A DNA stretch of 36,934 nt from a virus. This document shows positions 2,651 through 36,856 of this stretch, piece after piece. Below the pieces are notes generated by a model. It ran no database searches. It had not been told where the DNA came from and worked only from the letters and a program-made list of their open reading frames with translations. The stretch spans positions 1 through 36,934 of the IMG/VR virus record IMGVR_UViG_3300005618_000037; one strand, 5' to 3'. A program made the translations under genes and the position numbers. Numbering within the stretch: position 1 is the first letter of the stretch; each line of letters starts with the position of its first letter.

Positions 2651-2848
2651 TCATCCCTCCTCGATCGTCTTGCCGCACTCCGAGCACGTCGGAGTCGGAT
2701 GATTCGGCGACCGGTACGGATGCGCGCACCGGGCCGTCCGTACCGCGGTGGTGCACATCGTCAGTTCCGCGCCGTGCATCAGGCAGCGATCGCCGGGGAT
2801 CATGTGCACCGGCCGGCCAGAGTCGACGCAGTACCGCTCGCTCACCAT
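2651..2848 (-). CDS. 65-aa zinc-ribbon miniprotein
   Basis: The ATG at 2848 lies seven bases inside the end of the DnaC-like gene, so it is coupled to it. The protein has many Cys and His residues (CVDSGR, CLMHGAE, CAHPYR, CSECGK), compatible with one or two zinc sites. The longer minus frame reaching 3292 is a shadow of the DnaC-like gene. Unknown function; possibly an accessory of the replication genes it follows. Confidence 0.6.
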   Translation of the reverse strand: MVSERYCVDSGRPVHMIPGDRCLMHGAELTMCTTAVRTARCAHPYRSPNHPTPTCSECGKTIEEG

Positions 2849-3534
2849 TCGGTGACCACCTTCCGTACGGCGGGCCCGTCGAGGACTACCGCGCCGCCGT
2901 CGTCGATGAGCCGCTCGACGATCGGGTCCCCGTACCGCGCGACGAGTTCCTCGTACGCCGCCTCGGCGGTGGACCCGCTGTTGGTCGTGACGACCATCCG
3001 GCGTTCGTTGGCGCAGCGGTTGTCGACGATGCGCTGGAGCTGCTCGAGCCACCAGTCGGTGACGCGCTCGCGGCCGAGGTCGTCCAGGACGAGCAGGTCG
3101 CAGTCGGTGGCGTAGTTGAACGCCAGCGGCTCCCCGTCCGGCTTCAGCGACGCGGACAGGTCGGCCGCGGTCCACACCATGACCCACTCGCCCTGGGCGT
3201 GAGCGTCGTTCGCGATCGCGTACGCGGCCGTCGTCTTGCCCGTGCGGGCCGGGCCGGCGACGACCAGGGCGCGGGGGCCGCGGAGCCGCCACGAGCTGAC
3301 CATGCCCTTCGGGTCCTGGTTGGGGCGCAGGGTCTCGTACGAGGCGGTGGCGTACCTCGAGGGCCGGTGCTTGGCGTAGATCGCCGAACGGTTCGCTGCC
3401 TGCCGCGCGCGGATCGCCGCGAGTTCGGCGCGGTCGGCCTCGAGCAGGAGTTCTGTTGCGCCGGTCGCGTCGACGGTGGCGACGAGGGCGCGCCAGGAGG
3501 CGAGCTGGGGTGCGAGGGTCAGGGGCGTGTTCAT
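2842..3534 (-). CDS. dnaC-like: DnaC/IstB-like replication helicase loader
   Basis: 230-residue AAA+ ATPase. Walker A is GPARTGKT (94-101), Walker B is LLVLDDLGRE (147-156) with the DD that coordinates Mg, and VVTTNS (about 181-186) matches sensor 1. In phages, such proteins load the replicative helicase (DnaB) onto the origin melted by the initiator, as lambda P and host DnaC do. The gene directly follows the O-like initiator with a 4-bp overlap, the usual initiator-loader pair. No helicase gene is seen in the window, so the host DnaB is the likely client. Confidence 0.85.
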   Translation of the reverse strand: MNTPLTLAPQLASWRALVATVDATGATELLLEADRAELAAIRARQAANRSAIYAKHRPSRYATASYETLRPNQDPKGMVSSWRLRGPRALVVAGPARTGKTTAAYAIANDAHAQGEWVMVWTAADLSASLKPDGEPLAFNYATDCDLLVLDDLGRERVTDWWLEQLQRIVDNRCANERRMVVTTNSGSTAEAAYEELVARYGDPIVERLIDDGGAVVLDGPAVRKVVTEW

Positions 3535-4451
3535 GAGGGACCTCCGGCGGCGATCTTGCTGGCGTGCACCGCGCTGGTGAACGGGTTACGGGCTGCCCGC
3601 TCTTCGGGCGGGAGTTGGTCGATGTGGCGGTTCGTGGAGTGCGAGCGGCCGTTGGTCGCTGGCGCCTTGCCCTGCGCCTCGAGCCGTAGGCGGTCGTAGT
3701 TCTTGCGCAGCTTCGGCATCGACATGACGTTGGCGCGCCAGAAGTGATGGTTTTGGCACCAGTCGATTGCCCGGATGACCTGCTCGACGGTCTTGCCGTC
3801 CAGGTCGATGAGCCGCCGTCCCTCGTCGCGCCACTTCTTGGTGATCGTCGGTCGCTTCGAGCCGTTGGCCACGATTCGGTCGGCTAGGTGCTGGCAGATC
3901 TTCTCGACGTCTGGGCGGGCGGGGTCGGAAGGTTCGGCTTCCGACGTAAGGGTTTGTTCTTCTATCTGGTTCTTATCTGAAGAAGATCTGTATCTGTGTC
4001 CAGCCACCGCACTAGGTGGTCCAGCATCTGCACTAGGTAGTCCATCTCCCGCACTAGGTAGTCCAGCCACCGCACTAGGTTCCTGGTCCTCCTGGTCCAG
4101 CTCCTGGACTAGCTCCGACGCCGCGGCGGCCATCGATTCCGGCACCCGGAGTTGATAGCGAGTCCGCTCACCCCGACCAAGCGCCTCGGCCGTCGTCGGC
4201 CGCACCCGAACAACCCACCCACCAGCCTCCAGCGCCCGCAGATGCTCGGCCACCGTCGAACGCCCCAGGCCGGTCTCGTCGGCCAACACAGTCAACGACG
4301 GAGTCCTATGAGGAGGAATCTCCGCCGTACCCGCCGTAGCGACATCAGCCAGCACGAACATGACCAACTTCGCCGACGAAGGCAGCTTCGACGCCCGGAC
4401 GGCCTTGGTGACCCTCCACTTCAGCCCCTTCGTTGGTTCGCCGGTCGACAT
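3531..4451 (-). CDS. O-like phage replication initiator containing its own origin
   Basis: 306 residues from the ATG at 4451, preferred to the TTG at 4490 because GAGGAGGG stands about ten bases upstream. The N terminus is a winged helix: LPSSAKLVMFVLADVAT, then LADETGLGRSTVAEHLRALEAGGWV. A low-complexity linker with repeated PSAxAG units is encoded by the DNA iterons at 4,000-4,080. The C-terminal part (VEKICQHLADRIVANGS and HFWRANVMSMPKLRKNYDRL) resembles the C-terminal region of phage replication proteins that contact the helicase loader. Gene order (initiator then DnaC-like) and the iterons inside the linker are as in lambda O. The role is to bind the iterons and start bidirectional phage replication. 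Confidence 0.8.
   Translation of the reverse strand: MSTGEPTKGLKWRVTKAVRASKLPSSAKLVMFVLADVATAGTAEIPPHRTPSLTVLADETGLGRSTVAEHLRALEAGGWVVRVRPTTAEALGRGERTRYQLRVPESMAAAASELVQELDQEDQEPSAVAGLPSAGDGLPSADAGPPSAVAGHRYRSSSDKNQIEEQTLTSEAEPSDPARPDVEKICQHLADRIVANGSKRPTITKKWRDEGRRLIDLDGKTVEQVIRAIDWCQNHHFWRANVMSMPKLRKNYDRLRLEAQGKAPATNGRSHSTNRHIDQLPPEERAARNPFTSAVHASKIAAGGPS
3950..4080 (-). other. Candidate phage replication origin: four 21-bp iterons plus AT-rich tract
   Basis: Four copies of GCACTAGGT lie at 4009-4017, 4030-4038, 4051-4059 and 4072-4080, spaced exactly 21 bp, within partly conserved 21-bp units (common parts AGCCACC and GGTAGTCC). The first unit has a dyad, CCACC to GGTGG. Next to them, 3950-3998 is unusually AT-rich for this genome and holds three TATCTG motifs. 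In the direction of transcription the iterons come first and the AT-rich tract follows, as in lambda ori within gene O. Confidence 0.7.
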
Positions 4452-4543
4452 GCGTTGCCAGCCCTCCTCGTTGATGGTCTTCGGTGCCAAGCCTCGGCGC
4501 GGACACCCGAAAGTGGCCGCGCCGGAATACGTGTATGTGCAGG

Positions 4544-8122: not shown

Positions 8123-8309
8123 GACGCTCAACTCCCCGAGCGAAGTGCTCCAACCGACGGAACACCTCGACACCAACCGACCGGCCACGAGAGTCGTACA
8201 GGTACACCGCACCTGTTCCGTCCCCGGACACCGTGCACGTCACCCGATGCGCCTTCAGACGCCTGATCAGGACCACGCCGTCGACGAGGTAGGTCACCGT
8301 CGCCTTCAC
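8115..8309 (-). CDS. 64-aa phage protein, unknown function
   Basis: A short beta-rich protein (MKATVTYLVDGVVLIRRLKA and AVYLYDSRGRSVGVEVF) wedged between the DUF5131 gene (4-bp overlap) and the methyltransferase (8-bp overlap). No family is recognised. Confidence 0.55.
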   Translation of the reverse strand: MKATVTYLVDGVVLIRRLKAHRVTCTVSGDGTGAVYLYDSRGRSVGVEVFRRLEHFARGVERRG

Positions 8310-9211
8310 CTGGACACCACCGGGTACTCATCCCAGGTCCGGCCGTCCATGTCACGCAGGGACTTCGACTTCGCGGCATACATGAAGACGCTGTTCCGCC
8401 CAGCCTCGTCATCGACCCACGTTGAACGCGAGTACCACCCATGGACATCCGCAGGAGCCCACGTTCCCCACTGCTTGAAGAAGAACGCCGTGCCGGCCGC
8501 GGCACACTGGTCGCGGAGCGAGCGTGCCCAGTCGGGGTGCATCGGCCTGGCGCCCGGACCGGACTCGCCGCCGACGATTACCCAGTCGATGGCCCGCCAA
8601 CAGCCGACCTCCGTACAGGGGTGCCGGGGGTGGTCGCAGGCCAGGGAGTCCCACAGCGTCACCGGGCCGAGCAGCGGCTCGCAGGACAGGAACCGGACGG
8701 CGGCCGGCGTTTCGAGTAGCGCGGGGATGCGGATGTCGGCCCATTTCTGGTCCTCGACGGAGACGCCCAGCCATACGTTCGGCAGAGGCCACTCCACCCG
8801 TTCGGCAGCCTTCCGTCCGATCGACTCCGAGAGTCGCAAATCGAGCGCGATGTTGAACGCTGGGCTGTTGAGGAGGGAACGCATCCGAGCGTGCCGCTTG
8901 GTCAGGATCTGGTACGTGTGCTGCGGCGTGGCCGCCATGACCGCGAACACTCGGGCGATGTAGTCGTCTGGTACGTCGTCGTGGAACAGGTCCGACATCG
9001 AGTTGACGAACACCCGGCGCGGCTTCCGCCACTTCAACGGCGCGGCCAGGCGCTCCTCGTTCAACGTCACCTGCGCGAAAGCGCCCTTGCCCTTGAATCG
9101 CTCGACGATCCGCTCCGCGTAGCAGTTGTCGCAGCCAGGACTCACCTTCGTACAGCCGGTGACCGGATTCCAGGTGGCGTCAGTCCACTCGATCTTGCTG
9201 TTCTCACCCAT
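8306..9211 (-). CDS. Phage Gp37/Gp68 family protein (DUF5131)
   Basis: 301 residues. The opening SKIEWTDATWNPVTGC followed by SPGCDNCYAER is the signature of DUF5131, the phage Gp37/Gp68 family. C20, C27 and C30 resemble a radical-SAM-type iron-sulfur cluster site. Further family blocks are VFVNSMSDLFH, QILTKR, WLGVSVEDQ, RFLSCEPLLG and WVIVGGESGPGARPM. The reaction is not established; the fold and cysteines suggest nucleic acid or nucleotide modification. It is next to a methyltransferase. The full length is present and all conserved blocks are intact. Confidence 0.85.
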   Translation of the reverse strand: MGENSKIEWTDATWNPVTGCTKVSPGCDNCYAERIVERFKGKGAFAQVTLNEERLAAPLKWRKPRRVFVNSMSDLFHDDVPDDYIARVFAVMAATPQHTYQILTKRHARMRSLLNSPAFNIALDLRLSESIGRKAAERVEWPLPNVWLGVSVEDQKWADIRIPALLETPAAVRFLSCEPLLGPVTLWDSLACDHPRHPCTEVGCWRAIDWVIVGGESGPGARPMHPDWARSLRDQCAAAGTAFFFKQWGTWAPADVHGWYSRSTWVDDEAGRNSVFMYAAKSKSLRDMDGRTWDEYPVVSR

Positions 9212-15627: not shown

Positions 15628-16119
15628 ATGCCCAACGACCGGACCCTGCCTAGCAAACGTCCCACACAAGACGATCAACACATACGCAAGCCTCTGGGCA
15701 TCAATCGCTGGCTGATTCCGTTCGGGGTCATGGCGACCATTACGTTGTGGGTAACCACGGCCGTTCTGATCGGCACCGACACCGACCCTGGAATTACGAC
15801 CATCGAAATGGCGATCTTTGCTGGGACGTCGATCGCCACCATGACGACCGTGGTGCGGGGCCTCCAGTACGTGCTGCACAAGTCGATGGCTGACGATCAC
15901 CAGATGATCCGCGACGACGTCGAGGATCTCCGCGGAATAGTCCTCGAACTGCGGGCCCGGCTGGTCGTTGCAGCCAGCGAAACCCGCGCATTGCTTGAGC
16001 AGATTTCCGCCAAGCAGAATCGGCTCGCCGAGTTGTACTGGCAGAACCTCGCCGACGAGGTTTCAGCCGACGCAAAACCAAATGGCAGCGTCGTTCCCTT
16101 CGGGCGCCGGCACACCTGA
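15628..16119 (+). CDS. Two-pass membrane protein with coiled-coil tail
   Basis: 163 residues from the ATG at 15628, which has GGAGG seven bases upstream. Two membrane helices are near 30-52 (WLIPFGVMATITLWVTTAVL) and 60-80 (IEMAIFAGTSIATMTTVV). They are followed by a long charged helix (DDVEDLRGIVLELRARLVV onwards) likely to form a coiled coil. It overlaps the integrase start (TGATG). Genes between repressor and integrase in temperate actinophages are often superinfection-immunity or exclusion genes; this is a positional guess. No family is recognised. Confidence 0.6.
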   Translation: MPNDRTLPSKRPTQDDQHIRKPLGINRWLIPFGVMATITLWVTTAVLIGTDTDPGITTIEMAIFAGTSIATMTTVVRGLQYVLHKSMADDHQMIRDDVEDLRGIVLELRARLVVAASETRALLEQISAKQNRLAELYWQNLADEVSADAKPNGSVVPFGRRHT

Positions 16120-17477
16120 TGGCCAGGCATCGGCCCAACGGCCACGCCTCGCCGTACCTGGGGGCTGACGGGTGGTGGCACTGCCACGTCACCATCGGAG
16201 TACGCGGCGACGGCCGGCCCGACCGGCGGCACGTACGCCGGCGCACGGAGAAGCTGTGTGCCGATGCCGTTGACGAGCTACGCAGCCGGGTCCGCGGTGG
16301 CCAGCAGGTGGTAGCGAAGTCCCCGACCGTCGGCGAGTGGCTGGACCACTGGCTCGAAACGGTGGTGAAGCCAAACCGGAAGTGGAAGACCTACCAGGCG
16401 TACGACCCGATCATCCGGCTGCACCTGAAGCCGCGGATCGGGCAGTACCGCATCGGAGGAACCCGCAAGCTGCTTCAGCCCGAGCACCTTGACACCTGCT
16501 ACGCCGAGCTGCGCGCCGCCGGCATGGCACCCGCCTACGTGCTGCAATGCCACCGGGTGCTGAGTCGGGCGTTGAAGGTCGCGGTACGGCGGGGCCGCGC
16601 GAACCGCAACGTCTGCGACCTCGTCGACCCGCCTGCGACGACGAGGCGGAGGCCGAAGGCGTTGAGCATGGAGGCGGTCAAGAAGATCATCGGCGCCATC
16701 GCCACCGACCGGATGTCCGCCCGCTGGCTTCTGGCCCTGCTCCTCGGTCTACGTCAAGGCGAGGTGCTCGGGCTGCGCTGGGGCGACGTCGACCTCGACG
16801 CCGAGAAACCGATGCTGAGTCCTAAGAAGCAGGCACAGCGACGCACGTGGCAGCACGGCTGCAAAGAACCGGCGGTGTGCGCGCGGCGACACTGCCGGGT
16901 CAAGCCCTGCCGGCCCGGCTGCACGCGGCACAAGACCTGCCCGGCCCCGTGCCCGGCAGGCTGTACCGGGCACGCGCGCGCCTGCAAGGAGCGCACCGGC
17001 GGCGGGATGGTGTTCGTGGACCTGAAGAGCGACGGCAGCGAACGGCCCCTGCCGCTCGACCCGGTCCTGGTCCGCGCGCTGCGCGAGCACCGGCGCCGCC
17101 AGCGCGAGGAGCGGATGGCGCTCGGCAAGGGCAAGGCCACCGACAAGGACCTCGTCTTCACCACCGTGCTCGGTACGACGATTGACCCGCGCCGTGACCA
17201 TGAGGATTGGGAGCAGGTCTTGGTCCGCGCCGGTCTGCCCGACGCTGCGCTGCACGCGGCCCGGCACACCGCGGCGACGCTGCTCGTCGCGACGGGTACG
17301 GACATCGCCGTGGTGCAGGAAGTGTTGGGCCACGCTGACATTCGGACCACACGCGGCTATACCGACGTGGCGGCAGAGTTGAAGCGCGAGGCGGTCGACC
17401 GGCTGGCAACGGTCCTCTTCGGCGGCGCCCTCGACGCGCTGGTGCAACAGCCCGGTGCGACAGGACGAGTCCAGTAG
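16119..17477 (+). CDS. int: Tyrosine recombinase (phage integrase) with Cys/His-rich insert
   Basis: 452 residues. An arm-binding N terminus (1-60) and SAM-like core-binding domain (68-165) precede the catalytic domain. Catalytic residues R212 (GLRQGEVLGLRW), H379 and R382 (HAARHT), H405 (LGHADIRTT) and Y414 (RGYTDV) are all present. Between R212 and the rest lies an insert (about 245-295) with eleven Cys and several His, of a type seen in actinobacterial integrases and likely to bind zinc. The gene ends beside a Thr-tRNA 3' half, the expected attachment site. Its last codons contain two putative arm-type sites. Confidence 0.95.
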   Translation: MARHRPNGHASPYLGADGWWHCHVTIGVRGDGRPDRRHVRRRTEKLCADAVDELRSRVRGGQQVVAKSPTVGEWLDHWLETVVKPNRKWKTYQAYDPIIRLHLKPRIGQYRIGGTRKLLQPEHLDTCYAELRAAGMAPAYVLQCHRVLSRALKVAVRRGRANRNVCDLVDPPATTRRRPKALSMEAVKKIIGAIATDRMSARWLLALLLGLRQGEVLGLRWGDVDLDAEKPMLSPKKQAQRRTWQHGCKEPAVCARRHCRVKPCRPGCTRHKTCPAPCPAGCTGHARACKERTGGGMVFVDLKSDGSERPLPLDPVLVRALREHRRRQREERMALGKGKATDKDLVFTTVLGTTIDPRRDHEDWEQVLVRAGLPDAALHAARHTAATLLVATGTDIAVVQEVLGHADIRTTRGYTDVAAELKREAVDRLATVLFGGALDALVQQPGATGRVQ

Positions 17478-17663
17478 CGGCCTGTCGATCTACATTCATG
17501 CAGCTCAGAGCGGAGCCGACGGCGGGACTTGAACCCGCAACCTTCCGATTACAAGGTCTCTGGTATATAGGGAACGGAAGTGAATACGTGGTGCTCACAC
17601 GCCGTTTCCGAACTCCCATTCACCCCCGTTCACACGTGTTCGGTGCAACAGTTGGTGCAACAG
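17441..17663. other. attP: attP candidate: tRNA-Thr core with tandem arm sites on both sides
   Basis: GGTGCAACAG occurs at 17441-17450, with a one-mismatch copy GGTGCGACAG at 17454-17463. Two exact copies lie at 17642-17651 and 17654-17663. All four have the same orientation and a 12-13 bp period within each pair. The tRNA-derived core lies between the pairs. This is the layout of an intact attP with P and P' arms. The right part (17560-17640) has further TTCAC/GTGAA motifs that may bind Xis or host factors. Confidence 0.65.
17513..17556 (-). tRNA. 3' half of tRNA-Thr(UGU), att core, not a complete tRNA
   Basis: On the minus strand the sequence runs from an anticodon loop CTTGTAA (anticodon TGT) through a variable loop, T arm GCGGG-TTCAAGT-CCCGC and acceptor strand CGTCGGC, then TCC. 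The expected 5' half (acceptor, D arm, 5' anticodon strand) is absent; the bases upstream do not pair. Phages that insert in tRNA genes carry just such a 3' half to restore the host gene. Confidence 0.8.
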
Positions 17664-17667
17664 CACA

Positions 17668-18891
17668 TCAGGCCGCAGTCAACGCACGAAGCTCATCGAG
17701 GTACAGATTCGCCTCCGGCTCGTCCGGGTACCGATGCACCAACTCCGCACCCAACTCCCGCGCGCACATAGTCAACGACGGCAGCGATTGGCGGTTTCCA
17801 CCCAGTGCTCGCCGCCCGTACATCAGCGCACCCTCAAGGTCATTCTGACGCGCGGCGACGACGCCAAGCGTCACCCGCGCCTCGGCCGCGCGCATCGGCC
17901 GGAGGTCGACACCGTTGCGGTCCGTCGACGTACGCAGCACCTCACGGGCATACTCCTCCGCCAGGCGGTCCTCGCCGACATGCCGGTAGGCATCCATCGT
18001 GTAGAAGTCCCACTTCGACGGATCGACCACGAAGTGATTGTCTGGGTTGTCGGGATACGGCAGCGCCTCCAGCACCGTCCGGCCGCTCTCCAACGCAGCG
18101 TCGACCTCGGCCCGGTTCCCCATCCGCGCCCACGCCTTCGCCCGGTGCGCCTGCATCTGGACGACCACGCTGTGCGCCGGCCCGACAGCGGCAAGACCAG
18201 CGTCGGCGGCCGCGATCGCTGCCCGGTACTGGCCGTGGGTCAGTGCGAACCAGGCCCGCATCTCGTGCGCCCAGCCCACCGTGTTCGAGTCCCCCGCCTC
18301 CTGGCCGAGCAGCAGCGCCCCGCGGCGCGTCGTCTCAGCCGGCTGCTCCAGGCCGAGGTCGTACTCAACGCAGCCGACCAGCAACGCGATCTGACCGGCG
18401 AGCGCCAGGATCTCGCGGTGCTGCGCGAGCGTCATCTTCCGGTCGCGGAGTTCCGTTAACCGCTGCAGCCAGTCGCGCCCTTCGACATACAGGTCACCAG
18501 CGGGTACGCGAGAGTATTCGCACCCCAACCGCTCGGCCGTGATTTGCAGCGCCTCGATCGTCGCTTGCGACACGTCCGAGGAGCGCAGCCGCGTGATGAC
18601 CTCCAGAGTGTCGAGGCCCGTCGACGAGAGAAGCTCCGCGTCATGGCTGGTCTGGCGAGGGAACAGCGCCGCGGTGACCGTGCCGAACACCTTCGCGAGG
18701 AGCGGCTTGTGAACCCGATCGGGTTCCACCTCGCCGGTTTCCCAGCGCTTCCAGTTGCGCACCAGATTCGCCTGATCCATCGGCTTGTCGGCAATCCGCC
18801 GCAGCTCACGGGCGGCGTCAGCCAGCGACCAGCCACGGGCGCACCGGGCGGCGCGAATCCGGATGGCCCATGCCGGGCGGTCGTCAGGCAT
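17668..18891 (-). CDS. Long XRE-family regulator with TPR-like C-terminal region
   Basis: 407 residues from the ATG at 18891, which has AGGAGG seven bases upstream. Residues 8-75 (WAIRIRAARCARGWSLADAA to NWKRWETGEVEPDRVHKPLL) are an XRE-type HTH. The remaining 300 residues are helical repeats resembling TPRs (for example AAIAAADAGLAAVGPAHSVV and ARVTLGVVAARQNDLEGALM). Such regulators are common in Streptomyces and Micromonospora, where several sense unknown signals. It lies beside the att site and divergent from the 91-aa gene. It might be phage cargo or a captured host gene. Confidence 0.8.
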   Translation of the reverse strand: MPDDRPAWAIRIRAARCARGWSLADAARELRRIADKPMDQANLVRNWKRWETGEVEPDRVHKPLLAKVFGTVTAALFPRQTSHDAELLSSTGLDTLEVITRLRSSDVSQATIEALQITAERLGCEYSRVPAGDLYVEGRDWLQRLTELRDRKMTLAQHREILALAGQIALLVGCVEYDLGLEQPAETTRRGALLLGQEAGDSNTVGWAHEMRAWFALTHGQYRAAIAAADAGLAAVGPAHSVVVQMQAHRAKAWARMGNRAEVDAALESGRTVLEALPYPDNPDNHFVVDPSKWDFYTMDAYRHVGEDRLAEEYAREVLRTSTDRNGVDLRPMRAAEARVTLGVVAARQNDLEGALMYGRRALGGNRQSLPSLTMCARELGAELVHRYPDEPEANLYLDELRALTAA

Positions 18892-18909
18892 CGATCCTCC
18901 TCTGCGGCT

Positions 18910-18931
18910 GGGGACACGGTGGGGACACGGT
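18910..18931 (-). promoter_or_regulatory. Tandem 11-bp repeats upstream of the XRE-TPR gene
   Basis: GGGGACACGGT is repeated head to tail at 18910-18920 and 18921-18931, just upstream of the regulator start at 18891. One helical turn per repeat suits a binding site for the regulator itself. The rest of the 182-bp gap (18892-19073) also holds the repeated GTGAAC-CGGGTG phrase at about 18962-18995. Confidence 0.4.
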
Positions 18932-19073
18932 GTTGACCCCATCGTGACACCTGTTCCGGCCGGTGAACACGGGTGACCCTGAGTGAACGGGTGCGACGCT
19001 CGCAGACCCGCTCAATCTCAAGCTTGCGCGGCAAACCACGGGCGTCGCGCCCCCTCAATGAAGGTGGGCGCTC

Positions 19074-21047: not shown

Positions 21048-21427
21048 GCGCCGCGACCCGCCGGGAGGTGTTGGCGTTCATCGCGTTGCAGGACCTGTCG
21101 ATGCCGGGCTTCGTGTCGATGGTCGAGTCGCTGACGGCCTCGGATCCGGGCGGGGCGTTGTCCTTGAAGTTTTTCGGGCCGAGTGCTGAAGCGGACCTGA
21201 ACGCTTGGGGCGACCTGCTCGGTGCGGGTGAGCCGCGCTCCTACGACGACGACCCTGATCCTGACGACAAGGACCGGCGGCGAAACATCTTCCGTAGCGG
21301 AACCTGGCGGGGCCGGGATCTGACTCTGCGGGCGCAGGTGCCGCTGCAGTCGCCGAGTACTCCGCCGGAGCCACTGGACGAGGACACCTCGGCGAAGCTT
21401 CGGGAGATCGCCGGAGGCGACCAGTGA
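21044..21427 (+). CDS. 127-aa protein, unknown function
   Basis: Starts MSAATRREVLAFIALQDLSM; a central acidic loop (DDDPDPDDKDRRR) is followed by a short basic, beta-like stretch. It overlaps both neighbours by 4 bp. It has no recognised domain and is coding by third-position GC and coupling. Confidence 0.6.
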   Translation: MSAATRREVLAFIALQDLSMPGFVSMVESLTASDPGGALSLKFFGPSAEADLNAWGDLLGAGEPRSYDDDPDPDDKDRRRNIFRSGTWRGRDLTLRAQVPLQSPSTPPEPLDEDTSAKLREIAGGDQ

Positions 21428-22152
21428 GCGCCCCGACGATCAACGGTGTCTCGGTCGAGGAGTTGATGCCGGCCGCCCGCGACTTGGCGATCACGCTCGA
21501 TCGTGTACCGGCCTGTAACGAGATCCGTCGGGAGTTGAAGGTCGGCTACGAGCGGGCGAAGGAGATCCAGGAGCGGTTGGAGGAGCAGGCCCGCCGATAC
21601 GACGAGGCCGCTGCGACTGACGCCGACCTGATCAGTCCCGAGCCCGACGAGCCGGCCGAGCCGGCGCCCGCCCCCACGGTCCCGGATTCGCAGGTCACGA
21701 CGGTCGCAGAACCGGTGAGGCCGGCGGCCCGGAAGCTGTCCGTCTGGCCGCTGATTCCCTTGGCCCTTCCGGCGTCGGTGGCGATCTGGTCGGGCTGGGT
21801 CGGGCTGGGTGGGCTGACCGGCTTCGGGGTGGTCCATCCGCTGCCCGGTATCTGGGACGAGGCGAGGTTGAACACGGCGATCACGTTGCCGATCGGGGTC
21901 GAGGCGTACGCCGCCTACGCGTTGCGGGCTTGGCTGACCCCGGGTGTCCTGGACCGGGCGCGGCGGTTCGCGAAGAAGTCCGCGATCGGCTCACTGCTTC
22001 TCGGTGCGCTTGGTCAGGTGGCCTTCCATGTCATGGCCGCCGCCGGGATCACTGCTGCCCCGTGGTGGATCACCACTTTGGTCGCCTGCCTTCCGGTTGG
22101 CGTCTTGGGCATGGGTGCCGCTCTTGCCCATCTACTCCGCACCACTGACTGA
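21424..22152 (+). CDS. Membrane protein with N-terminal HTH-like part (DUF2637/Spd-like)
   Basis: 242 residues. Residues 1-60 (ARDLAITLDRVPACNEIRRE, then LKVGYERAKEIQERLEEQ) resemble the HTH found at the start of actinomycete plasmid transfer or spread proteins. Residues 100-240 contain four membrane helices, starting WPLIPLALPASVAIWSGWVG and ending WWITTLVACLPVGVLGMGAA, with the AITLPIGVEAYAAYALRAWL block typical of DUF2637. DUF2637 proteins are linked to plasmid spread within mycelium. That supports a plasmid-like origin of this module. Confidence 0.65.
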   Translation: MSAPTINGVSVEELMPAARDLAITLDRVPACNEIRRELKVGYERAKEIQERLEEQARRYDEAAATDADLISPEPDEPAEPAPAPTVPDSQVTTVAEPVRPAARKLSVWPLIPLALPASVAIWSGWVGLGGLTGFGVVHPLPGIWDEARLNTAITLPIGVEAYAAYALRAWLTPGVLDRARRFAKKSAIGSLLLGALGQVAFHVMAAAGITAAPWWITTLVACLPVGVLGMGAALAHLLRTTD

Positions 22153-22667: not shown

Positions 22668-22928
22668 ATGTCAGCACGCCAGTACCGGGTCCGCGTCTTC
22701 GACGACGGTAGCGAGGTCCTTTCCGATCGGGAGTACGTCGAGGTCCTGGACCTGGCCGCGGGCGCGACGTTGCGGGAGGCACAGGCCCGGCTCGATGAGT
22801 TGGCCCGGACTCTCGCCCGCGCTTCCGGCGCGAAGCCGCAGCACCTGCACCGCTACTACCTGGCCGTTCATGACCGGGACACCGACGACCTGCTGTTCCA
22901 CTGGCCGGCCAAAGAGACCGATTACTGA
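22668..22928 (+). CDS. 87-aa protein, unknown function
   Basis: The start MSARQYRVRVFDDG at 22668 has GGAG six bases upstream; two earlier ATGs in frame are less well placed. The fold looks alpha/beta (YRVRVFDDGSEVLSD, then LREAQARLDELARTLARASG). No family is recognised. It lies after the 22.57-kb hairpin. Confidence 0.6.
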   Translation: MSARQYRVRVFDDGSEVLSDREYVEVLDLAAGATLREAQARLDELARTLARASGAKPQHLHRYYLAVHDRDTDDLLFHWPAKETDY

Positions 22929-22959
22929 CCCGAGACCTGGGGAAACGGAAGAAGCCATC

Positions 22960-23481
22960 ATGAATCACGCCATGTCCCCGACCGGGGTGGCGGTCCTGCT
23001 AATGCTGGCCCTGGTCGTCGACTACCTGTCCGTCGGCCCGAACTCCATCCGTGACCGGTTGGCGTTCTTCTTGGGCCTGGCCGCGATCCGGGAGGGGTTC
23101 AACGGCTCGCCGCTGGACAACTGGACGGTCGGGCTCCTGTCGGGCGTAATCGACCAGCTCAAGCACTCGACCGGCGCCGCGTACATCGCGGGCGCCACGA
23201 CCAGCGCGGTGATCGGCGCCGGGATCGGCGTGCTCGCCATATACACGGTGGGCGCACTGCTGCCTACCAAGTTCTCCAAGAAGCTGGGCCGGTTCGCGAC
23301 CATCAAGTTCCCGACGTCGGCGATGCACCGGATCAACTACAAGCTGTGGCTGTGCGCGGCCCTTCTCGGCATGCTCGGCGACCTGTCCGGCGGTTGGGTC
23401 GGCGACCTGGTCACCCAGTTCACGGACGCGGACGTCCACCTCTGCGCATCGATTCCCTTCAAAATCTTCGGGGTGAGCTGA
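22960..23481 (+). CDS. Multi-pass membrane protein of the plasmid-like module
   Basis: 173 residues. Hydrophobic segments near 8-25 (VAVLLMLALVVDYLSVG), 80-105 (AVIGAGIGVLAIYTVGALL) and 125-145 (LWLCAALLGMLGDLSGGWVG) are likely membrane helices. A small basic loop (TKFSKKLGRFATIKFP) lies between the last two. No named family. Multi-pass proteins next to the FtsK/TraB-type gene are usual in actinomycete conjugative plasmids, where they help spread DNA between compartments. The role here is inferred from position only. Confidence 0.6.
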   Translation: MNHAMSPTGVAVLLMLALVVDYLSVGPNSIRDRLAFFLGLAAIREGFNGSPLDNWTVGLLSGVIDQLKHSTGAAYIAGATTSAVIGAGIGVLAIYTVGALLPTKFSKKLGRFATIKFPTSAMHRINYKLWLCAALLGMLGDLSGGWVGDLVTQFTDADVHLCASIPFKIFGVS

Positions 23482-23482
23482 C

Positions 23483-23899
23483 ATGATCATTTTGGCTGCC
23501 GGTGAGGCCCATATGAACGAGAATCCGGGCTGGGGAAAGCTGGTCGCGTTCGTGTTGGCGGCCCTCCTCTTCTGGGCCGGTAAGAGCGCGTTCGAGCGTT
23601 GGAAGGGGTTGGATCAGGAGCCCCTCTCCCCCACTTCTGAGGGACCCCCCGCGGGTGGGGTCAAACCGCAGGTCACTGACCCTGCTGACCCCATTTTGAC
23701 CCCCCGGGGGAGGGCCGCCACGGTAGCGGATAACGATCTTGATGTGTTCGTCGAGACGAACCTGGAGCGGCTGCCTCGCAACGAGCTGAAGCGGCAGGCG
23801 ATGGCCCTGTTCCGCAAGTCCGAGTCGACTATCAAGCGCCGCATCCGCGAGGCGCGCGAGGCGCGCGAAGGCGTGCTGCGCGAGGACGACGAGTCATGA
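23483..23899 (+). CDS. Membrane-anchored protein with C-terminal HTH-like helix pair
   Basis: 138 residues (an inner ATG at 23513 is a possible start). One membrane helix ([18 protein letters not shown]) is followed by a Pro-rich spacer and then [20 protein letters not shown], a short HTH-like region, and a basic-acidic helix. It overlaps the FtsK gene by 4 bp, so the two are probably made together and may form a complex at the membrane. No family is recognised. Confidence 0.6.
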
Positions 23900-25773
23900 C
23901 TCCCCGGCTGATCCGGGCACTGCTGCTCGCCTTCGCTGCGCTCGTCGTCTCGTGCGCCTGGAGCTGGCTGCCCGTCCTGCTGTTGATCGGGATCGGGGTA
24001 TGGTCGGCGCCGTTCCGGGCCTGGCTGCTCGGCGCGCTGCTCGACCTCGGCGACTGGTTCCGTTCGTCGTACACGGTCAGTCGGGCCTGGTACCTGCTGT
24101 CCGGGATGCGGACCGGCCCGATGCGCGGCCCGGTCATCCACGCGGACGTGATCCCACAGGCGACCGTCGAACTGGACGACCGACCAACCGACGACGAACC
24201 GGCCGCCACTCCCCCGCCGCCGACCGCGCCAACGCCAGCCGCCGCGCCGGTTGTGCCGATGCCCGCCGCACCGGTTGTGCAGGCGCCGCAGCCGGAGCCC
24301 CTCGTCGCGCCGGCCGGCGCGTACCAGCCGCCGCCGCTGTCGATGCTGGCCGTCGGCGACGCGCCGCGCGCACGGACCCGAGCCAACGAGGAGACGATAG
24401 GCGCGCTCACCGGCGTGTTCGTTCAGTTCAAGGTGGACGCCGAAATCACCGGCCTGACCCGCGGCCCGACCGTCACCCGCTACGAGGCCGAGGTCGCGCC
24501 CGGCGTGAAGGTCGAGCGGGTCACCGCCCTCGCCAAGAACATCGCCTACGCGGTGAAGACCCCGGACGTGCGGATCCTCTCCCCGATCCCAGGGAAGTCC
24601 GCAGTCGGTATCGAGATCCCGAACGTCGACCGGGAAGACGTCCTCCTCGGCGACGTGCTCCGCTCCCCCGCCGCGGTGGTCGACCCGCACCCACTCGTCG
24701 TCGGCCTGGGCAAGGACGTCGACGGCAGCTTCATCGTCGCGAACCTGGCGAAGATGCCGCACATCCTGATCGCCGGGGCGACCGGCGCGGGCAAGTCCGT
24801 CTGCCTGAACTGCCTGCTGACCTCCGTGCTGAGCCGGGCCACCCCGGACGAGGTACGGCTGCTGCTGGTCGACCCGAAGCGGGTCGAGCTGTCCGACTAC
24901 GCCGGTGTGCCACACCTGATCACGCCGATCATCACGAACCCGCGCAAGGCCGCCGAGGCGCTGGACTGGGTGGTGCGGGAGATGGACGACCGGTACGACG
25001 CGATGGCGGCGGCCGGCGTCCGGCACATCGACGAGTACAACCGCCGGGTACGGGCAGGGAAGCTGCCGGGCCGGCCGCTGCCGTACCTGCTCGTCGTCAT
25101 CGACGAGCTGGCCGACCTGATGATGGTCGCCCCCCGCGACGTCGAGGACTCGATCGTGCGGATCACCCAACTGGCCCGGGCCGCCGGCATTCACCTCGTG
25201 GTCGCCACCCAACGGCCGTCCGTCGACGTGGTCACCGGACTGATCAAGGCGAACATGCCGTCCCGGCTCGCATTCGCCACCAGCTCGCTCGCCGACTCGC
25301 GGGTCATCCTGGACCAACCCGGCGCCGAGAAGCTGATCGGCCGCGGCGACGCGCTGTTCGTGCCGATGGGCACCAACCGGCCGTTCCGCCTACAGGGCGC
25401 CTGGGTCAGCGAGAACGAGATCCGCTCCGTCGTCCAGTTCTGCCGCGACCAGCGCCAGCCCGAGTTCCGCCCCGACATCACCGAGCAGCCGTCCGGCCCG
25501 ACCGGACCGGCCGACGACGCCGGCGACGACGCGGACCTGCTGCGCGAAGCGACCGAGCTGGTGGTGTCCAGCCAGTTCGGCTCGACCTCGATGCTGCAAC
25601 GCAAACTGCGGGTCGGGTTCGCGAAGGCCGGCCGGTTGATGGACCTCATGGAGCAGCGCCGCATCGTCGGCCCGTCCGAAGGCTCGAAGCCGCGCGACGT
25701 CCTCGTCAAGGCCGACGAGCTGCCCGAGGTCCTCGCCGGGCTGCGCGGCGAGCGGAAGGCGGTCCGGTCATGA
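23896..25773 (+). CDS. ftsK-like: FtsK/SpoIIIE-type DNA translocase with gamma domain
   Basis: 625 residues. Residues 1-50 carry about two membrane helices. A Pro/Ala-rich linker (95-150) follows, then the alpha-beta motor: Walker A GATGAGKS (294-301), Walker B LLVVIDE (398-404), [20 protein letters not shown] (437-456) and [14 protein letters not shown] (472-485). At 553-604 lies a gamma winged helix ([17 protein letters not shown], then [20 protein letters not shown]), which in FtsK reads orientation sequences and activates XerCD. Host FtsK has more N-terminal membrane helices and is longer. The motor likeness is to chromosomal FtsK more than to short TraB proteins. It could move element DNA between cells or compartments, or resolve multimers with the recombinase just downstream. 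Confidence 0.9.
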
Positions 25774-26222
25774 CCGACGTCGTACGCCAACCCGAGCTGC
25801 AGGTGATGTGGCTGACCGACACCCGGGCCTCGATCACCGGCCCGCTCGCCCGCGTGAACACCGCCCTCGGCCTGCTGCGCGAGGAGGGCCGGCTCGTTAC
25901 CACCACCGATCCGCAGCCGACCGCCGACGGCGGGGTCCTCGTCACCGTGAAGGTGCTGTCCGCTGTCGCTCCTCAGCCGCCGGTCGGGCCGGCGCCGAGC
26001 GCGTGGACGCCGCGAATCGTCACCATCCTCGCCGCGATCGTCGGCACCGTACTCATCTCCTGCGGCGTGATGGCGCTACACGGGCTGGCCTGGGTCGGTG
26101 CCCACGGCACGCTCCTGCTCGGCCTGCTCGCCGTCGTCGTCCTGGCCGTCGCCTTCGTGGCGGTGAACGCGCTCAGCGGTGGCCGTCTCGTCGAGGTTCT
26201 CGTCCGCGTCCGAGTCAAGTAG
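25770..26222 (+). CDS. Two-pass membrane protein coupled to FtsK
   Basis: 150 residues; the ATG overlaps the FtsK stop by 4 bp. The N-terminal 70 residues form a soluble alpha/beta part ([34 protein letters not shown]). They are followed by two membrane helices ([20 protein letters not shown] and [18 protein letters not shown]). No family is recognised. Coupling suggests it serves as a membrane partner of the translocase. Confidence 0.6.
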
Positions 26223-26232
26223 GGAGACGTTC

Positions 26233-26895
26233 ATGGGTCAGACGATCGGGTACGCCCGGGTGTCCGCAGCCGACCAGAACCCGCAGCTGCAGTTGGACGC
26301 GCTTCGCGAGGCGGGCTGCGGGAAGGTGTTCGTCGAGAAGATCACCGGGTCGCTGCGTGAGCGGCCGCAGCTCACCGCAGCGCTTGAGTACATCCGGCCC
26401 GGCGATGTCCTGGTCGTCTGGAAGCTCGACCGACTCGGGCGGTCGCTGCTGCATCTTATCGAGGTCGTCACCGGGCTACGCGACCATGGGGTCGACTTCC
26501 GGTCACTGAAGGAAAACATCGACACGACCACGGCGACCGGTCGCCTGATCTTCCACATCCTCGCGGCGCTGGCCGAGTTCGAACGCGACATGATCCGTGA
26601 GCGCGCGGCGGCCGGCCGGGCCGCGGCGATCGCGCAGGGCAAGACCGGCGGGCGACCGCGGTCGATGGACGACGACAAGCTGGCGGCAGCGAAGGCTCTC
26701 CTGGCGACGAAGCGGACCGTGGCGCAGGCGGCGAAGTCGATCGGGGTGTCCCGGGCGACGTTGTACCGGTACCTCACCGAATCTGTCGCAGAAGTCATCG
26801 ACGCTGCGGTTGATGAGACGGAGGTTCCTGACGCGGGTTTTGAGATGCCCGAATGGCTGGCCCACCCGGCGCCGGCCGGCCGAGCACAGAAGTAG
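26233..26895 (+). CDS. Serine recombinase (resolvase/invertase type)
   Basis: 220 residues. IGYARVSAADQNPQLQLDAL holds the nucleophile S11. R-rich catalytic blocks follow (VVWKLDRLGRSLLHLIEVV, about 62-80, and LAALAEFERDMIRERAAAGR, 113-132). A C-terminal HTH (TVAQAAKSIGVSRATLYRYL, 157-176) reads the site. The size is that of Hin/Gin invertases and Tn3 resolvases, not of large integrases. It has AGGGAG upstream and follows the FtsK block by 10 bp. Roles to consider: dimer resolution of a circular form, or inversion of a segment. No transposase or transposon ends are seen next to it. Confidence 0.9.
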   Translation: MGQTIGYARVSAADQNPQLQLDALREAGCGKVFVEKITGSLRERPQLTAALEYIRPGDVLVVWKLDRLGRSLLHLIEVVTGLRDHGVDFRSLKENIDTTTATGRLIFHILAALAEFERDMIRERAAAGRAAAIAQGKTGGRPRSMDDDKLAAAKALLATKRTVAQAAKSIGVSRATLYRYLTESVAEVIDAAVDETEVPDAGFEMPEWLAHPAPAGRAQK

Positions 26896-30674: not shown

Positions 30675-31640
30675 CTACTTCGCGGCGGCGAGGCAGTAGC
30701 CGATCGAGACGGCTGACCGGTCGTCGGTGGCCGAGGTCTTGACCCGGGCGATGGAGATCTTCGCCGTGTTGGGCGGCAGCACCAGGTACGGCCGGGGGCT
30801 CGCGGCGCTGATCGTGACGACCTCGATGCCGTAGCTGGCTCCGCCGTCACCGATCGCGACGCGCAGCTTCAGCGGCACGGTGCCGGTGAAGTCCGCGGTG
30901 AACGACAGCACCGCATTGCGGGTCCAGCCGGTGTAGGCGCCGGCGTTCGTTGGCGGGGTCGGCTCGGATGAGATCTGGGTCGTGACGGCCTTCGGGTCCG
31001 GGTCGGCCGGGTCGATGACGTTCCCGTCCTCGTCGAGCAGGTGGGCCATCGTCTCGTCGAACCCGAACCCCGGATTGACCTGTCCGGCCTGAATCGCAAC
31101 CATGTCGTCGTCCTCCTGGGATGTCGCCGGGGCCGGGTTCGCGGCCGCCTGCACGTAGCTGATGAACGTCGACCACGGGAAGTTGGCGCCCGGGTCGGTG
31201 TGGGTGCCGCGGTCGGACGGGAACGCGTTGGTGATGTCCAGGTGCCCGCAGATGCCCTTCGCCCCCGCCGAGACCTGCGAGGCGTTGCGTTTCACCATCG
31301 GCAGGCCGTAGCGGGTACAGAGTTCGGCGACGATCGGGGCGGCCTGACGCATCGTCGCGTCGCTGATCCGGTTCGACAGCCCGGTCAGTTCGAGCTGGAC
31401 CGAGATCTGGTTGCCGTGGAACAGGCAGCCGTAGGCGATGTTGTCCAGCGGCAACGCCCGGATCGCCGAGTCGTCGTCGACGTAGAAATGCGCCGAGGTG
31501 TGGTCCGGTCGGCGGGTCGCGTATGCGGCTTCCGCCGAGTCCGACGCGGTGTTGTCGGTGGCGTGGATGACCACGACCTGGGTACGCGGCCGGGGGCCGC
31601 CGTCGCCGAGGGCGTGCAGGTAGGGAAGGTCGCTGATCAT
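30675..31640 (-). CDS. Endolysin: N-acetylmuramoyl-L-alanine amidase (type 2)
   Basis: 321 residues from the ATG at 31640 with GGAGG upstream. The Amidase_2/PGRP domain occupies 1-165: VVVIHATDN with zinc ligand H26, then SAHFYVDDDSAI, GICGHLDIT with H133 and THTDPGANFPW with D149. It cuts the bond between MurNAc and the peptide stem. A 160-residue C-terminal part (FTGTVPLKLRVAIGDGG, PRPYLVLPPNTAKI) is a beta-rich domain probably for wall binding. No signal peptide is seen, so it needs a holin. The small membrane genes directly downstream are candidates. Confidence 0.9.
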   Translation of the reverse strand: MISDLPYLHALGDGGPRPRTQVVVIHATDNTASDSAEAAYATRRPDHTSAHFYVDDDSAIRALPLDNIAYGCLFHGNQISVQLELTGLSNRISDATMRQAAPIVAELCTRYGLPMVKRNASQVSAGAKGICGHLDITNAFPSDRGTHTDPGANFPWSTFISYVQAAANPAPATSQEDDDMVAIQAGQVNPGFGFDETMAHLLDEDGNVIDPADPDPKAVTTQISSEPTPPTNAGAYTGWTRNAVLSFTADFTGTVPLKLRVAIGDGGASYGIEVVTISAASPRPYLVLPPNTAKISIARVKTSATDDRSAVSIGYCLAAAK

Positions 31641-31692
31641 CCGTCCTCCGGGGTGAGATCGAGTTCCCCGCTGCGGACCTGCCGGCCGCCGG

Positions 31693-32109
31693 TCACGGCA
31701 GGGCCATGAGTGTTGCTCGCCGGTACGTTGCCGTGAGCGTGGCGAGATCAACTTCGGGAACGGTGGCCGCCGCCGCGTTCGCCGCGGCCGTCCCGGCAGT
31801 CTGAGCCCGGTTCCAGCGCGTGGCCCGGCTGTCGTAAACGTTCTGCATCGCCGCGTACAGCTGTTGGTCGGTTCGAGCCCCGGCCCACCACTGGGCGAGC
31901 TTGTCCCGGGCACTGATTTCCTCGCGCAGCACGCATGTGGACAGGTCTGTCAGAGGGGGCGGGCTGGTGGGGACGTCCCAGATCCGCAGCCGACCCTTAA
32001 CGGCATCCGGGGTGACCGCGATCTCCAGCTCCACGACGGGCCCGTCGTCGGTGCGCAGGCGCAGTATCCGCGGATACTGCCCGGCGCCGGTATCGAACTG
32101 CTCGCTCAC
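31693..32109 (-). CDS. Tail-region protein, unknown function
   Basis: 138 residues. YPRILRLRTDDGPVVELEIA and the start of a beta domain come first, then a helical part (LREEISARDKLAQWWAGART) and an Ala-rich end. It is encoded between the fibre-like protein and the endolysin. A structural role is inferred from position. It ends about 50 bp before the endolysin start. Confidence 0.65.
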   Translation of the reverse strand: MSEQFDTGAGQYPRILRLRTDDGPVVELEIAVTPDAVKGRLRIWDVPTSPPPLTDLSTCVLREEISARDKLAQWWAGARTDQQLYAAMQNVYDSRATRWNRAQTAGTAAANAAAATVPEVDLATLTATYRRATLMALP

Positions 32110-32123
32110 CGGTCAGCCCTCTC

Positions 32124-32729
32124 TCAGTTCTGCGGGTACACGAGGATGGCCTGGTCATCGAACGTGCCGGTGCCGCCGTCGACGCGGAAGTTGCAGGTGT
32201 AGGTGTAGCTGGTGCCGGGAGTGAGCCCGGAGACACGTTTGCGAGTACCGAACCTGCCGCCGTTGGTGCCGGCGATCCAGGTCGACCAGGTGTCATCGGC
32301 AGCGGTGATGGCGCCCCCGGACTGAGCCCAGGACAGGTACGTCTTCTGCGCACTGGAGCTGTTGAAGATCACGCCGCTGATGCAGACGATCACGATGCCC
32401 GACGGCGGGGCGGTGATCGTGGCCGACGCGGCGGACGACCCGGACAGGGTGCTGGTGTAGGAGGTGGAGGTGGTTGTGCCAACGGTGTTCTGCGTGCCCT
32501 CGGCGGACACCGAGGCGCCATAGCGCCACACGGGTTTCCAGCTACTGCCGTCATAGGTGTACATGTGATCGTCGTCGGCCAGGTAGCTGACCATGCCCTC
32601 GACCGGTGATGTGATCGCCGAGGTGCGGGCCGCCGCCGTGGCGAACGGGGTGACGACCTGGTCGCGGACGCTTGCGTTTGCCCAGCTCGCGGTGATCGTC
32701 GTGCCCGCAACGAGGGTGGTATAGGGCAC
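32124..32729 (-). CDS. Tail tip or fibre-like protein
   Basis: 201 residues from the GTG at 32729. The N terminus VPYTTLVAGTTITASWANAS and VRDQVVTPF is the pattern that opens many tail fibre and tip proteins of actinophages. The remainder is Ser/Thr-rich beta structure (TTTSTSYTSTLSGSSAASAT; CNFRVDGGTGTFDDQAILVY at the end). It probably contacts the host surface. The larger frame to 33134 is a shadow of the next gene. Confidence 0.7.
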   Translation of the reverse strand: MPYTTLVAGTTITASWANASVRDQVVTPFATAAARTSAITSPVEGMVSYLADDDHMYTYDGSSWKPVWRYGASVSAEGTQNTVGTTTSTSYTSTLSGSSAASATITAPPSGIVIVCISGVIFNSSSAQKTYLSWAQSGGAITAADDTWSTWIAGTNGGRFGTRKRVSGLTPGTSYTYTCNFRVDGGTGTFDDQAILVYPQN

Positions 32730-32731
32730 CG

Positions 32732-33019
32732 TCAACCTCCGATCGAGATGTGGTCGCCACCGGCGGGGATCGGGTCGTGGTCGAGGTGCTCGGTCCGGCA
32801 GCCGGCGGGCAGGCCGGCTATGCGCAGCGCCTTCACGACGGCGACCGCGACCATCTCGCCTTCGAGGTCGGCCTCGGCCTCGGTCGGGTTGTAGCGGGCC
32901 TCGGCGCAGCGGTTCATGTCGTCGTACGGGCCGTCGCCGACCATGACCGCCCACCGCCAGCCGGGCGGAACCGTTGGATGCTTCTCGGTGTCGATCGGAT
33001 GGATGACCAGCGTGATCAA
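32732..33019 (-). CDS. Small tail-region protein, unknown function
   Basis: 95 residues. MITLVIHPIDTEKHPTVPPG, then WRWAVMVGDGPYDDMNRCAE, and a C-terminal GGDHISIGG. A compact alpha/beta fold; no named family. It lies between two tail proteins and shares the operon. Confidence 0.65.
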   Translation of the reverse strand: MITLVIHPIDTEKHPTVPPGWRWAVMVGDGPYDDMNRCAEARYNPTEAEADLEGEMVAVAVVKALRIAGLPAGCRTEHLDHDPIPAGGDHISIGG

Positions 33020-33031
33020 CGGCGTCTCCGG

Positions 33032-34306
33032 CTAGTAGAAGAACAGGGACGTGTCCCACACCGCGGTGTCCCACAGCGAGCCGGAGAACAGGGTGTACGG
33101 GGTCGCGGACGAAAGCGTGAACACCGTTTCCCACGTGTCCGGGGTGATGGTGTGGGCGATGCCGGCGATGAAGCAGTCCTGGGTGATCGTGTGGCCGCCG
33201 GGCGGGCGGCGTTTGACCCGCACGAGGTCGCGGACCTTCAACCCGAGCACGATCGGGAACAGCAGCACTGGGTTACGCCGCGGCTTGATTGTCAGCGACT
33301 TGATCCGGCGTTCCGGCGCTTTGAACCGGGCCACCTTCCACGAGGCCAGCGACATGGTCTGCGCGTCGGACTCGCAGATCAGATCGGTGCGGGTGTCCCG
33401 CTTGTCGCCGTATAGCGCCCTGCTCGTCGCGTCCGCCACGGTCTGCGTTGTCGACCCAACCCGGGCGTAGGAGGCGATGTTGATGATCTGGTCACCGGCC
33501 GACGACAGTTGTGGATCCGTGTACGGGATTTCCGTCCCGCCGCCGTCGCCGAAGGTTGCCTGGACGTTGATGGAGCGGCTGTTCTGGACCAGCGCGTACT
33601 GCTGCTCGCCGACCACAGTGCCGGCGGCGTCGATGTAGACGGCGCCGCCCTCCGAGTCTGCGGTCAGCTTCAACTCGGTGCTGGTGTCCGCGGCGAGGGT
33701 GGTGGCCTGCATCGTGATCGTGCCGGCCTCGATCGCCCGTTCCCCCACGTGGCCGGCGTTGTTGAGCAGCCGGTGGATCCGGGTGCCGAACAGTTCCCCC
33801 GCACCGACCGCGGGCTGCTCCAGGCCGTCGAAGCCGGCGAGCTTGCCCAACTCGTCGGTGCACGGCACGGTGACGATCGCGTCGCCGGCGTTCGTCCGGT
33901 TCGGGCCGCCCGGCCAGGACTCCAGCCAGTCCAGCGCGTACCCGCGGTACACCGGGTAGGTGACGCCGGCGAAGGTGGCGTTCACCCGGATCGCCCGCCA
34001 CGGCCGGATCTCGGTCACACCGGCGGTGACGAACGGCCCCGACAGGTTGTCGGGCGACAGGTCACCGGAGCGGTTGTCGAGGACCAGCGTGGCGGCGCCG
34101 GCCTCCCACGCCTGGACCTCGCGGCCGAAGTGCCGGTCGGTGCTCAGGCGACGCAGCGGATACGCGGACAGGTCCACGAACAACTCGTCGGGACCCCACG
34201 TGTCGGTGTCCCAGACCGCCGAGTCCCACGCCCCGTAGTCCCCCGTTGCCGCCGACAGGGCACCTTCGATGGTGAGGGTCAGCCCGTCGCGCCAGGCGAC
34301 CGACAT
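33032..34306 (-). CDS. Minor tail protein
   Basis: 424 residues. Directly after the tape measure gene, where siphophages encode distal tail and hub proteins. Aromatic repeats occur at both ends (AWDSAVWDTDTWG and LWDTAVWDTSLFFY). VYRGYALDWLESWPG, then TVPCTDELGKLAGFDGLEQP are features of actinophage minor tail proteins. The start shares one base with the tape measure stop. A baseplate or hub role is inferred. Confidence 0.75.
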   Translation of the reverse strand: MSVAWRDGLTLTIEGALSAATGDYGAWDSAVWDTDTWGPDELFVDLSAYPLRRLSTDRHFGREVQAWEAGAATLVLDNRSGDLSPDNLSGPFVTAGVTEIRPWRAIRVNATFAGVTYPVYRGYALDWLESWPGGPNRTNAGDAIVTVPCTDELGKLAGFDGLEQPAVGAGELFGTRIHRLLNNAGHVGERAIEAGTITMQATTLAADTSTELKLTADSEGGAVYIDAAGTVVGEQQYALVQNSRSINVQATFGDGGGTEIPYTDPQLSSAGDQIINIASYARVGSTTQTVADATSRALYGDKRDTRTDLICESDAQTMSLASWKVARFKAPERRIKSLTIKPRRNPVLLFPIVLGLKVRDLVRVKRRPPGGHTITQDCFIAGIAHTITPDTWETVFTLSSATPYTLFSGSLWDTAVWDTSLFFY

Positions 34307-36315: not shown

Positions 36316-36856
36316 TACTCCTCACCCCCCGACCGCTCATCGATGATGTCCATCAGCGACACGAACAGGCCGTACGGAAGGTGCGGGATCTCATCCCAGC
36401 GGATCGACGGGAACACCTGCAGGATCGCCGGGGTGTAGCGGCGGATCAGGACGTCGATATCTCGGTCGGGGTGGAGCTTTCGTCTTTTCCCTCGGCGTCA
36501 ACGTCGAAGTCGAGTTGTGCCCAGGCGATCTGAAAGTCCATGTCGGCGAGCTCGGCGAGCATTTCGTCGCCGTGGCGGGCGTCCAGATGGCCGTTGTGGC
36601 GCAGCGCCAGCCAGGTGAAGGCCAGGTACAGGTCCGTGTCCTTGCGGACTCTGGTGACCTTTCCATCGCCGTCGACGTCGAACATGTCCCGCAGCGCGTC
36701 GGAGAGGTCCTGGAGTTCGTGGTAGCCGAACGCCCGCTGTAGCGTCGCCTGCTCCCGTGCGGTGGTGTCGCGCAGGTCGAGGCGCATTCGGTCGGAGCAG
36801 CCGAACTTCTTCTGGTCGGACTCCGACAGACACACGTAAATGTTCGCCGTGGTCAT
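36315..36856 (-). CDS. Tail assembly chaperone, frameshifted long form (G-T)
   Basis: 180 residues if the ribosome slips back one base at GGGAAAA (36491-36485 on the minus strand). The first 124 codons are shared with the short form. The remaining 56 come from the -1 frame (DRDIDVLIRRYTPAILQVFP, then SIRWDEIPHLPYGLFVSLMD and IIDERSGGEE). The frame ends in TAA that overlaps the tape measure ATG. The long form binds the tape measure protein during tail assembly in phages that use this shift. Confidence 0.8.
36446..36856 (-). CDS. Tail assembly chaperone, short form (G)
   Basis: 136 residues. TTANIYVCLSESDQKKFG, then RDTTAREQATLQRAFGYHEL and YLAFTWLALRHNGHLDARHG, match the all-helical tail assembly chaperone of long-tailed actinophages. 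It lies between the major tail gene region and the tape measure. The slippery heptamer is twelve codons before its stop. Confidence 0.85.
   Translation of the reverse strand: MTTANIYVCLSESDQKKFGCSDRMRLDLRDTTAREQATLQRAFGYHELQDLSDALRDMFDVDGDGKVTRVRKDTDLYLAFTWLALRHNGHLDARHGDEMLAELADMDFQIAWAQLDFDVDAEGKDESSTPTEISTS
36485..36491 (-). other. Slippery heptamer for -1 programmed frameshift
   Basis: On the minus strand G-GGA-AAA is in phase with the short chaperone frame (GAG GGA AAA GAC), the classic X-XXY-YYZ arrangement, and the -1 frame from here is open for 56 more codons to the tape measure gene. GGGAAAG, a near relative, is used by lambda G/GT. Confidence 0.85.

Follow-up and report, generated by a model that had tools for sequence, protein, structure and literature searches.

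The window analysed here, a viral contig of 36,934 nucleotides, carries the 3′ part of a tRNA gene beside an integrase gene, and the question raised by this locus (17441-17663) is whether it is an intact phage attachment site (attP) or a junction (attL or attR) formed by an integrated prophage. We regard the locus, with little doubt, as the complete attP of a temperate tailed phage whose host is an actinobacterium, probably of the family Micromonosporaceae, with a lambda-like integrase and tRNA-Thr(UGU) as its target; we infer both this host assignment and the non-integrated state of the DNA when it was sequenced.

The attP core (17512-17555, minus strand) was assigned by its identity to tRNA-Thr genes and corresponds to the 3′ part of tRNA-Thr(UGU), from the anticodon loop to the 3′ end. 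The alignment to tRNA-Thr genes suggested by the first-pass annotation showed 43-44 bp (17512/17513-17555) to be identical in the tRNA-Thr(UGU) genes of Dactylosporangium, Planosporangium, and Rugosimonospora, extending from the anticodon loop (17555), with the anticodon at 17551-17553, to past the discriminator base (17512/17513). The match to the tRNA-Thr of Planosporangium mesophilum reached 49 bp with one mismatch. No complete tRNA gene was found in the 36.9-kb window, and no tRNA-Thr 5′ half was found in it at ≤ 3 mismatches, in agreement with the claim that only the 3′ half is present. A second copy of the core, which had been proposed as a possible mark of prophage ends, was absent from the window and from the overlapping contigs. 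Strand exchange, and with it the exact crossover point, would lie in the anticodon loop of the core. Because the core extends to the tRNA 3′ end, integration would restore the tRNA-Thr gene. Genomes of Dactylosporangium and Planosporangium contain extra copies of the tRNA-Thr(UGU) 3′ half (L027/L031, L026/L032, L029/L034, and L035), which are probably remnants of other elements using the same site.

The ORF at 16119-17477 (plus strand) encodes a tyrosine integrase of 452 aa, as indicated by hits on phrog_1 (E 4.6e-62) and on Phage_integrase (1.4e-19) and Phage_int_SAM_3 (4.2e-7) in Pfam, and by alignment. It comprises a SAM-like core-binding domain and a catalytic domain, and R212, K303, H379, R382, and Y414, invariant in the alignment among four relatives, form the catalytic R-K-H-R-Y set. 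Residues 1-69 generated no Pfam match; strands and a helix were predicted there at low confidence (pLDDT mostly 34-57), in a structure prediction of low overall quality (mean pLDDT 60.9). The catalytic domain contains a Cys/His-rich, repeat-like insert (16854-16986, residues about 246-289) ahead of the catalytic Lys303, placed by the low-confidence model between strands 237-242 and 296-301. The length of the insert varies among relatives (it is longer in L002, L050, L057, and L088), a related form is present in the tRNA-Val group (L042-L045), and a simple pattern search gave no recognised match in most other integrases. Zinc binding by the insert is possible as a guess from its residues. The integrase may tentatively be assigned to a subfamily defined by this insert, perhaps a zinc-folded extra module for contact or control in the integrase-attP complex, a proposal that we hold to be rather less probable than not; a literature search did not turn up a tyrosine integrase variant with such an insert.

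Four TGCAAC-type repeats, all on the plus strand, flank the core. The left pair consists of GGTGCAACAG at 17441-17450 and GGTGCGACAG, a sequence match with one mismatch, at 17454-17463 (13 bp start to start). The right pair consists of two copies of GGTGCAACAG at 17642-17651 and 17654-17663 (12 bp start to start); they have equivalents at attR of the lysogens G276 and G248 described below and in a second viral contig, L002. The coordinates confirmed the first-pass annotation in its count of two repeats on each side of the core, in the same orientation, with a 12-13 bp period and one mismatch. The left pair is left of the core as stated, but both of its units fall within the final codons of the integrase ORF; the right pair occupies noncoding sequence with respect to int, in the stretch that separates the core from the following gene. 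The arms had also been called symmetric. Measured from the anticodon, the units start at -108, -95, +93, and +105 in the window; relatives are only approximately symmetric (-145, -132, +113, +125, and +137 in G276).

When the whole window was simulated 100 times with a third-order Markov model, no simulation produced a non-overlapping cluster of this kind (three exact 10-mers and one with one mismatch, within 225 bp). The real window contains one further match to GGTGCAACAG at ≤ 1 mismatch in its 36.9 kb (minus strand, 3453) and a second such 10-mer cluster at 4007-4071, formed by 21-bp spaced repeats in a replication gene. TGCAAC repeats with a period of 13 were also present at the left arm position in L002, L050, L057, L069, and L088, and the repeat variant, unlike between phages, is alike in the left and right arms of each phage. 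The region of the int stop was surveyed for the best tandem repeat of 10-mers with a period of 11-14, counted at 9 or 10 matches of 10. Such repeats were found for 24 of 35 integrases vs 63 of 1205 control stretches; a pair at the int stop like the left arm pair is therefore common in the integrase family. In other integrase groups, the int stop carries an equivalent pair of different sequence (TGAGACC, TACACCC). As the left arm pair is inside coding sequence, part of its conservation may be at the protein level. Exact tandem GGTGCAACAG pairs elsewhere in viral contigs (23 stretches) were considered and dropped, none having a same-family integrase or a nearby tRNA signature.

The second viral contig (L002, also L085; IMG/VR 3300005437_000026) encodes an integrase 50% identical to that of the window. 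Its int gene harbours a TGCAACCA pair (period 13) at the 3′ end; a tRNA-Thr(UGU)-type core comes next, and after it a TGCAACCA/CGCAACCA pair of period 12. It thus shares with the window the type of core, the 13/12 bp arm layout, and a related tail gene on the same side, but differs in the repeat itself (TGCAACCA) and in most other genes, which are unrelated.

Integrated relatives were sought in 355 genomes from the family to which D. vinaceum belongs. A genome-wide scan with the window integrase as single query found no relative, whereas the family search identified an integrase relative in 75 of the 355 genomes. At most loci examined, int and an intact tRNA gene faced each other with their 3′ ends, a convergent layout as in the window. 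No close lysogen of the phage in the window was found; the closest relatives were in G276 and G248, where the integrase adjoins tRNA-Thr(CGU). The integrases of the integrated relatives are about 46-50% identical to that of the window. In both genomes the core is a 44-bp direct repeat, with the second copy 37.3 kb away in G276 and 41.1 kb away in G248. The int-side copy is accompanied by the left TGCAAC pair (period 13) and by the 5′ half of the tRNA. This half is missing at the far copy, which carries the right arm, consisting of three TGCAACG units with a period of 12 in G276 and two units with a period of 13 in G248. The arms are thus parted to opposite ends of the prophage, each beside one copy of the 44-bp core, while both arms stand on one core in the window and in L002; therefore, the site in the window is attP, as the first-pass annotation had claimed. 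The two prophages, both of Micromonosporaceae, resemble the window in their integrase family, in the convergent arrangement of int and tRNA, in having TGCAAC arm pairs and a core of 44 bp, and in similar distal-end genes, and differ in the isoacceptor gene targeted, tRNA-Thr(CGU), and in arms located further from the core. A tRNA-Val core pattern had no match in five other lysogens, but the pattern was guessed and the result says nothing about those lysogens. The G248 contig C116 carries four core copies (51468, 92590, 135671, and 136976) at one tRNA-Thr(CGU) gene within 86 kb (51468-137008; L073, L076, L078, and L079), with another integrase beside the second copy. This region is apparently a tandem array of integrated elements.

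Phage genes are present on both sides of the core. To the left are int, HNH, and DNA methylase genes, and replication genes for an O-like initiator and a DnaC-like loader (2842-4490, minus strand; PHROGs). To the right are a putative transcriptional regulator ending beside the right arm (17668-18942, minus strand; phrog_10886, E 6.3e-14), an FtsK-like translocase, a serine recombinase, and lysis and tail genes (30675-36315, minus strand; endolysin/amidase, minor tail, and tape-measure-like; PHROGs and Amidase_2 in Pfam). Genes at 22795-23899 (5.2-6.3 kb to the right of the core) have counterparts in the G248 prophage, located 5.2-6.2 kb inward from its distal end, and the tail gene at 33032-34306 has matches in the same direction in G276 and in the L002 contig. 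Genes right of the core thus match those at lysogen distal ends, with similar spacing and the same orientation, and the view that the DNA on the two sides belongs to one element was upheld. There is no direct junction between the two window ends. At the right, positions 34170-36934 are 100% identical over 2765 bp to IMG/VR contig 3300026095_000155 (L038/L095), where genes for the major tail protein, tail terminator, head-tail adaptor, and head follow. Its outer end overlaps by 129 bp (99.2%) with contig 3300026095_000117 (L094), on which the major head, protease, portal, and terminase genes are located. Judged from these overlaps, the attP belongs to the interior of a single phage map, about 52 kb long by summed lengths. 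No exact match extending the left end of the window was found. A weak HNH match, below the Pfam cut-off, is located at that end (81-371). HNH genes often sit just before terminase, and the ends of the map may nearly meet; no overlap between them was found.

Several other features were observed on this map. Five direct repeats of about 20 bp, mostly 21 bp apart, are located at 3996-4112 inside the O-like initiator gene (3531-4490) and look like origin iterons. The phage-borne FtsK (23896-25773), between attP and the lysis genes, has alpha, motor, and gamma domains, and a weak FtsK-gamma-like protein is encoded at 21424-22152; an FtsK homologue was found neither in the L002 contig nor in those parts of G276 and G248 that the comparison covered. 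Besides its tyrosine integrase, the phage encodes a small serine recombinase of the resolvase/invertase type at 26179-26895. A DUF5131 protein (8306-9211) is a conserved phage protein without an assigned function (phrog_2045). Glycosyltransferase and sugar epimerase genes are among the head genes of L038/L095 and L094. DNA comparison of the window with a phage database yielded short, weak matches only. An actinomycete integrative-conjugative element, considered for the FtsK/SpoIIIE gene, was rejected on two grounds: the map includes tail, lysis, head, and terminase genes, and the FtsK has the full alpha-motor-gamma set.

The reading of the locus as attL or attR of a single integrated prophage that borders on host DNA at one side would account for the lone tRNA 3′ half, such as an attR leaves behind. 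Phage genes flank both sides, however; host gene order starting after 17,560, which the first-pass annotation had named as refuting its attP claim, was looked for where possible and is absent. No tRNA 5′ half occurs on the side away from int, and both arms are present, as against one arm each at attL and attR of the relatives; we consider this reading hardly credible. It is also very unlikely that the repeats are coding or regulatory repeats lying near the core by chance. The left pair is in the int ORF, where the C-terminal peptide of the integrase (LLQP..AT) is conserved, and similar tandem 10-mers occur in other viral contigs lacking a nearby tRNA signature; yet the right pair, outside the int gene, is of the same variant as the left pair within each phage, L002, G276, and G248 share the positions and periods of the repeats, and other integrase groups have an equivalent pair at the int stop.

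The locus could also be the internal junction of a tandem array, in which two prophages occupy the same tRNA gene and the distal end of one abuts the int end of the next. The four core copies of G248, with another integrase beside the second, indicate that arrays occur in this family, and tandem prophages have been described in Mycobacterium abscessus (PMC9934374). A homotypic tandem prophage would hold an identical junction, which sequence alone cannot separate from free or virion DNA. At the mixed junction in G248, however, the int 3′ end of the second element has no TGCAAC pair, whereas the left and right arms of the window carry the same repeat; therefore, tandem elements here would need to be identical or nearly so. 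Read together, the contigs also form one phage map that extends from attP as far as terminase. An array is thus improbable, though it is the least improbable of these readings, and the complete attP of one phage is preferred.

At this attP, the lambda-like tyrosine integrase would contact the two TGCAAC-type repeats of each arm, four in all, through its N-terminal domain and the tRNA-like core through its core-binding and catalytic domains. Strand exchange would take place in the anticodon loop and would place the phage within the tRNA-Thr(UGU) gene of the host. As the sequence between the anticodon loop and the 3′ end would come from the phage core, the tRNA would be restored at the integrase end, and the old tRNA 3′ half of the host would stay at the far end of the prophage.

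Putative arm-site pairs flanking a tRNA core have been published for actinophage attP sites (PMC10865867). The actinobacteriophages Boilgate, Fionnbharth, and LeBron (PMC10865867) resemble the window in having a lambda-like integrase, putative arm-type site pairs on both sides of a tRNA-derived core, and a core at or near the anticodon loop; the window integrase is a distant match (33% identity) to that of Boilgate. These phages use tRNA-Lys, whereas the window has tRNA-Thr(UGU), and in contrast to them, its core reaches the tRNA 3′ end and no phage-encoded tRNA was found. As the core extends that far, a phage-encoded tRNA would be needless; tRNA-dependent lysogeny, in which a phage tRNA replaces the disrupted host tRNA, was rejected on the reach of the core and the lack of a tRNA gene in the window. 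The attP design is thus ordinary and already known, and the copy in the window is well preserved. It fixes the phage ends for lysogens, names tRNA-Thr(UGU) as the target gene, and points to Dactylosporangium, Planosporangium, Rugosimonospora, or near relatives as the likely host group. Arms that are joined or split provide a clean criterion for distinguishing attP from attL and attR in metagenomic contigs, and the complete integrase-attP pair is a possible integration vector for actinomycetes with few genetic tools.
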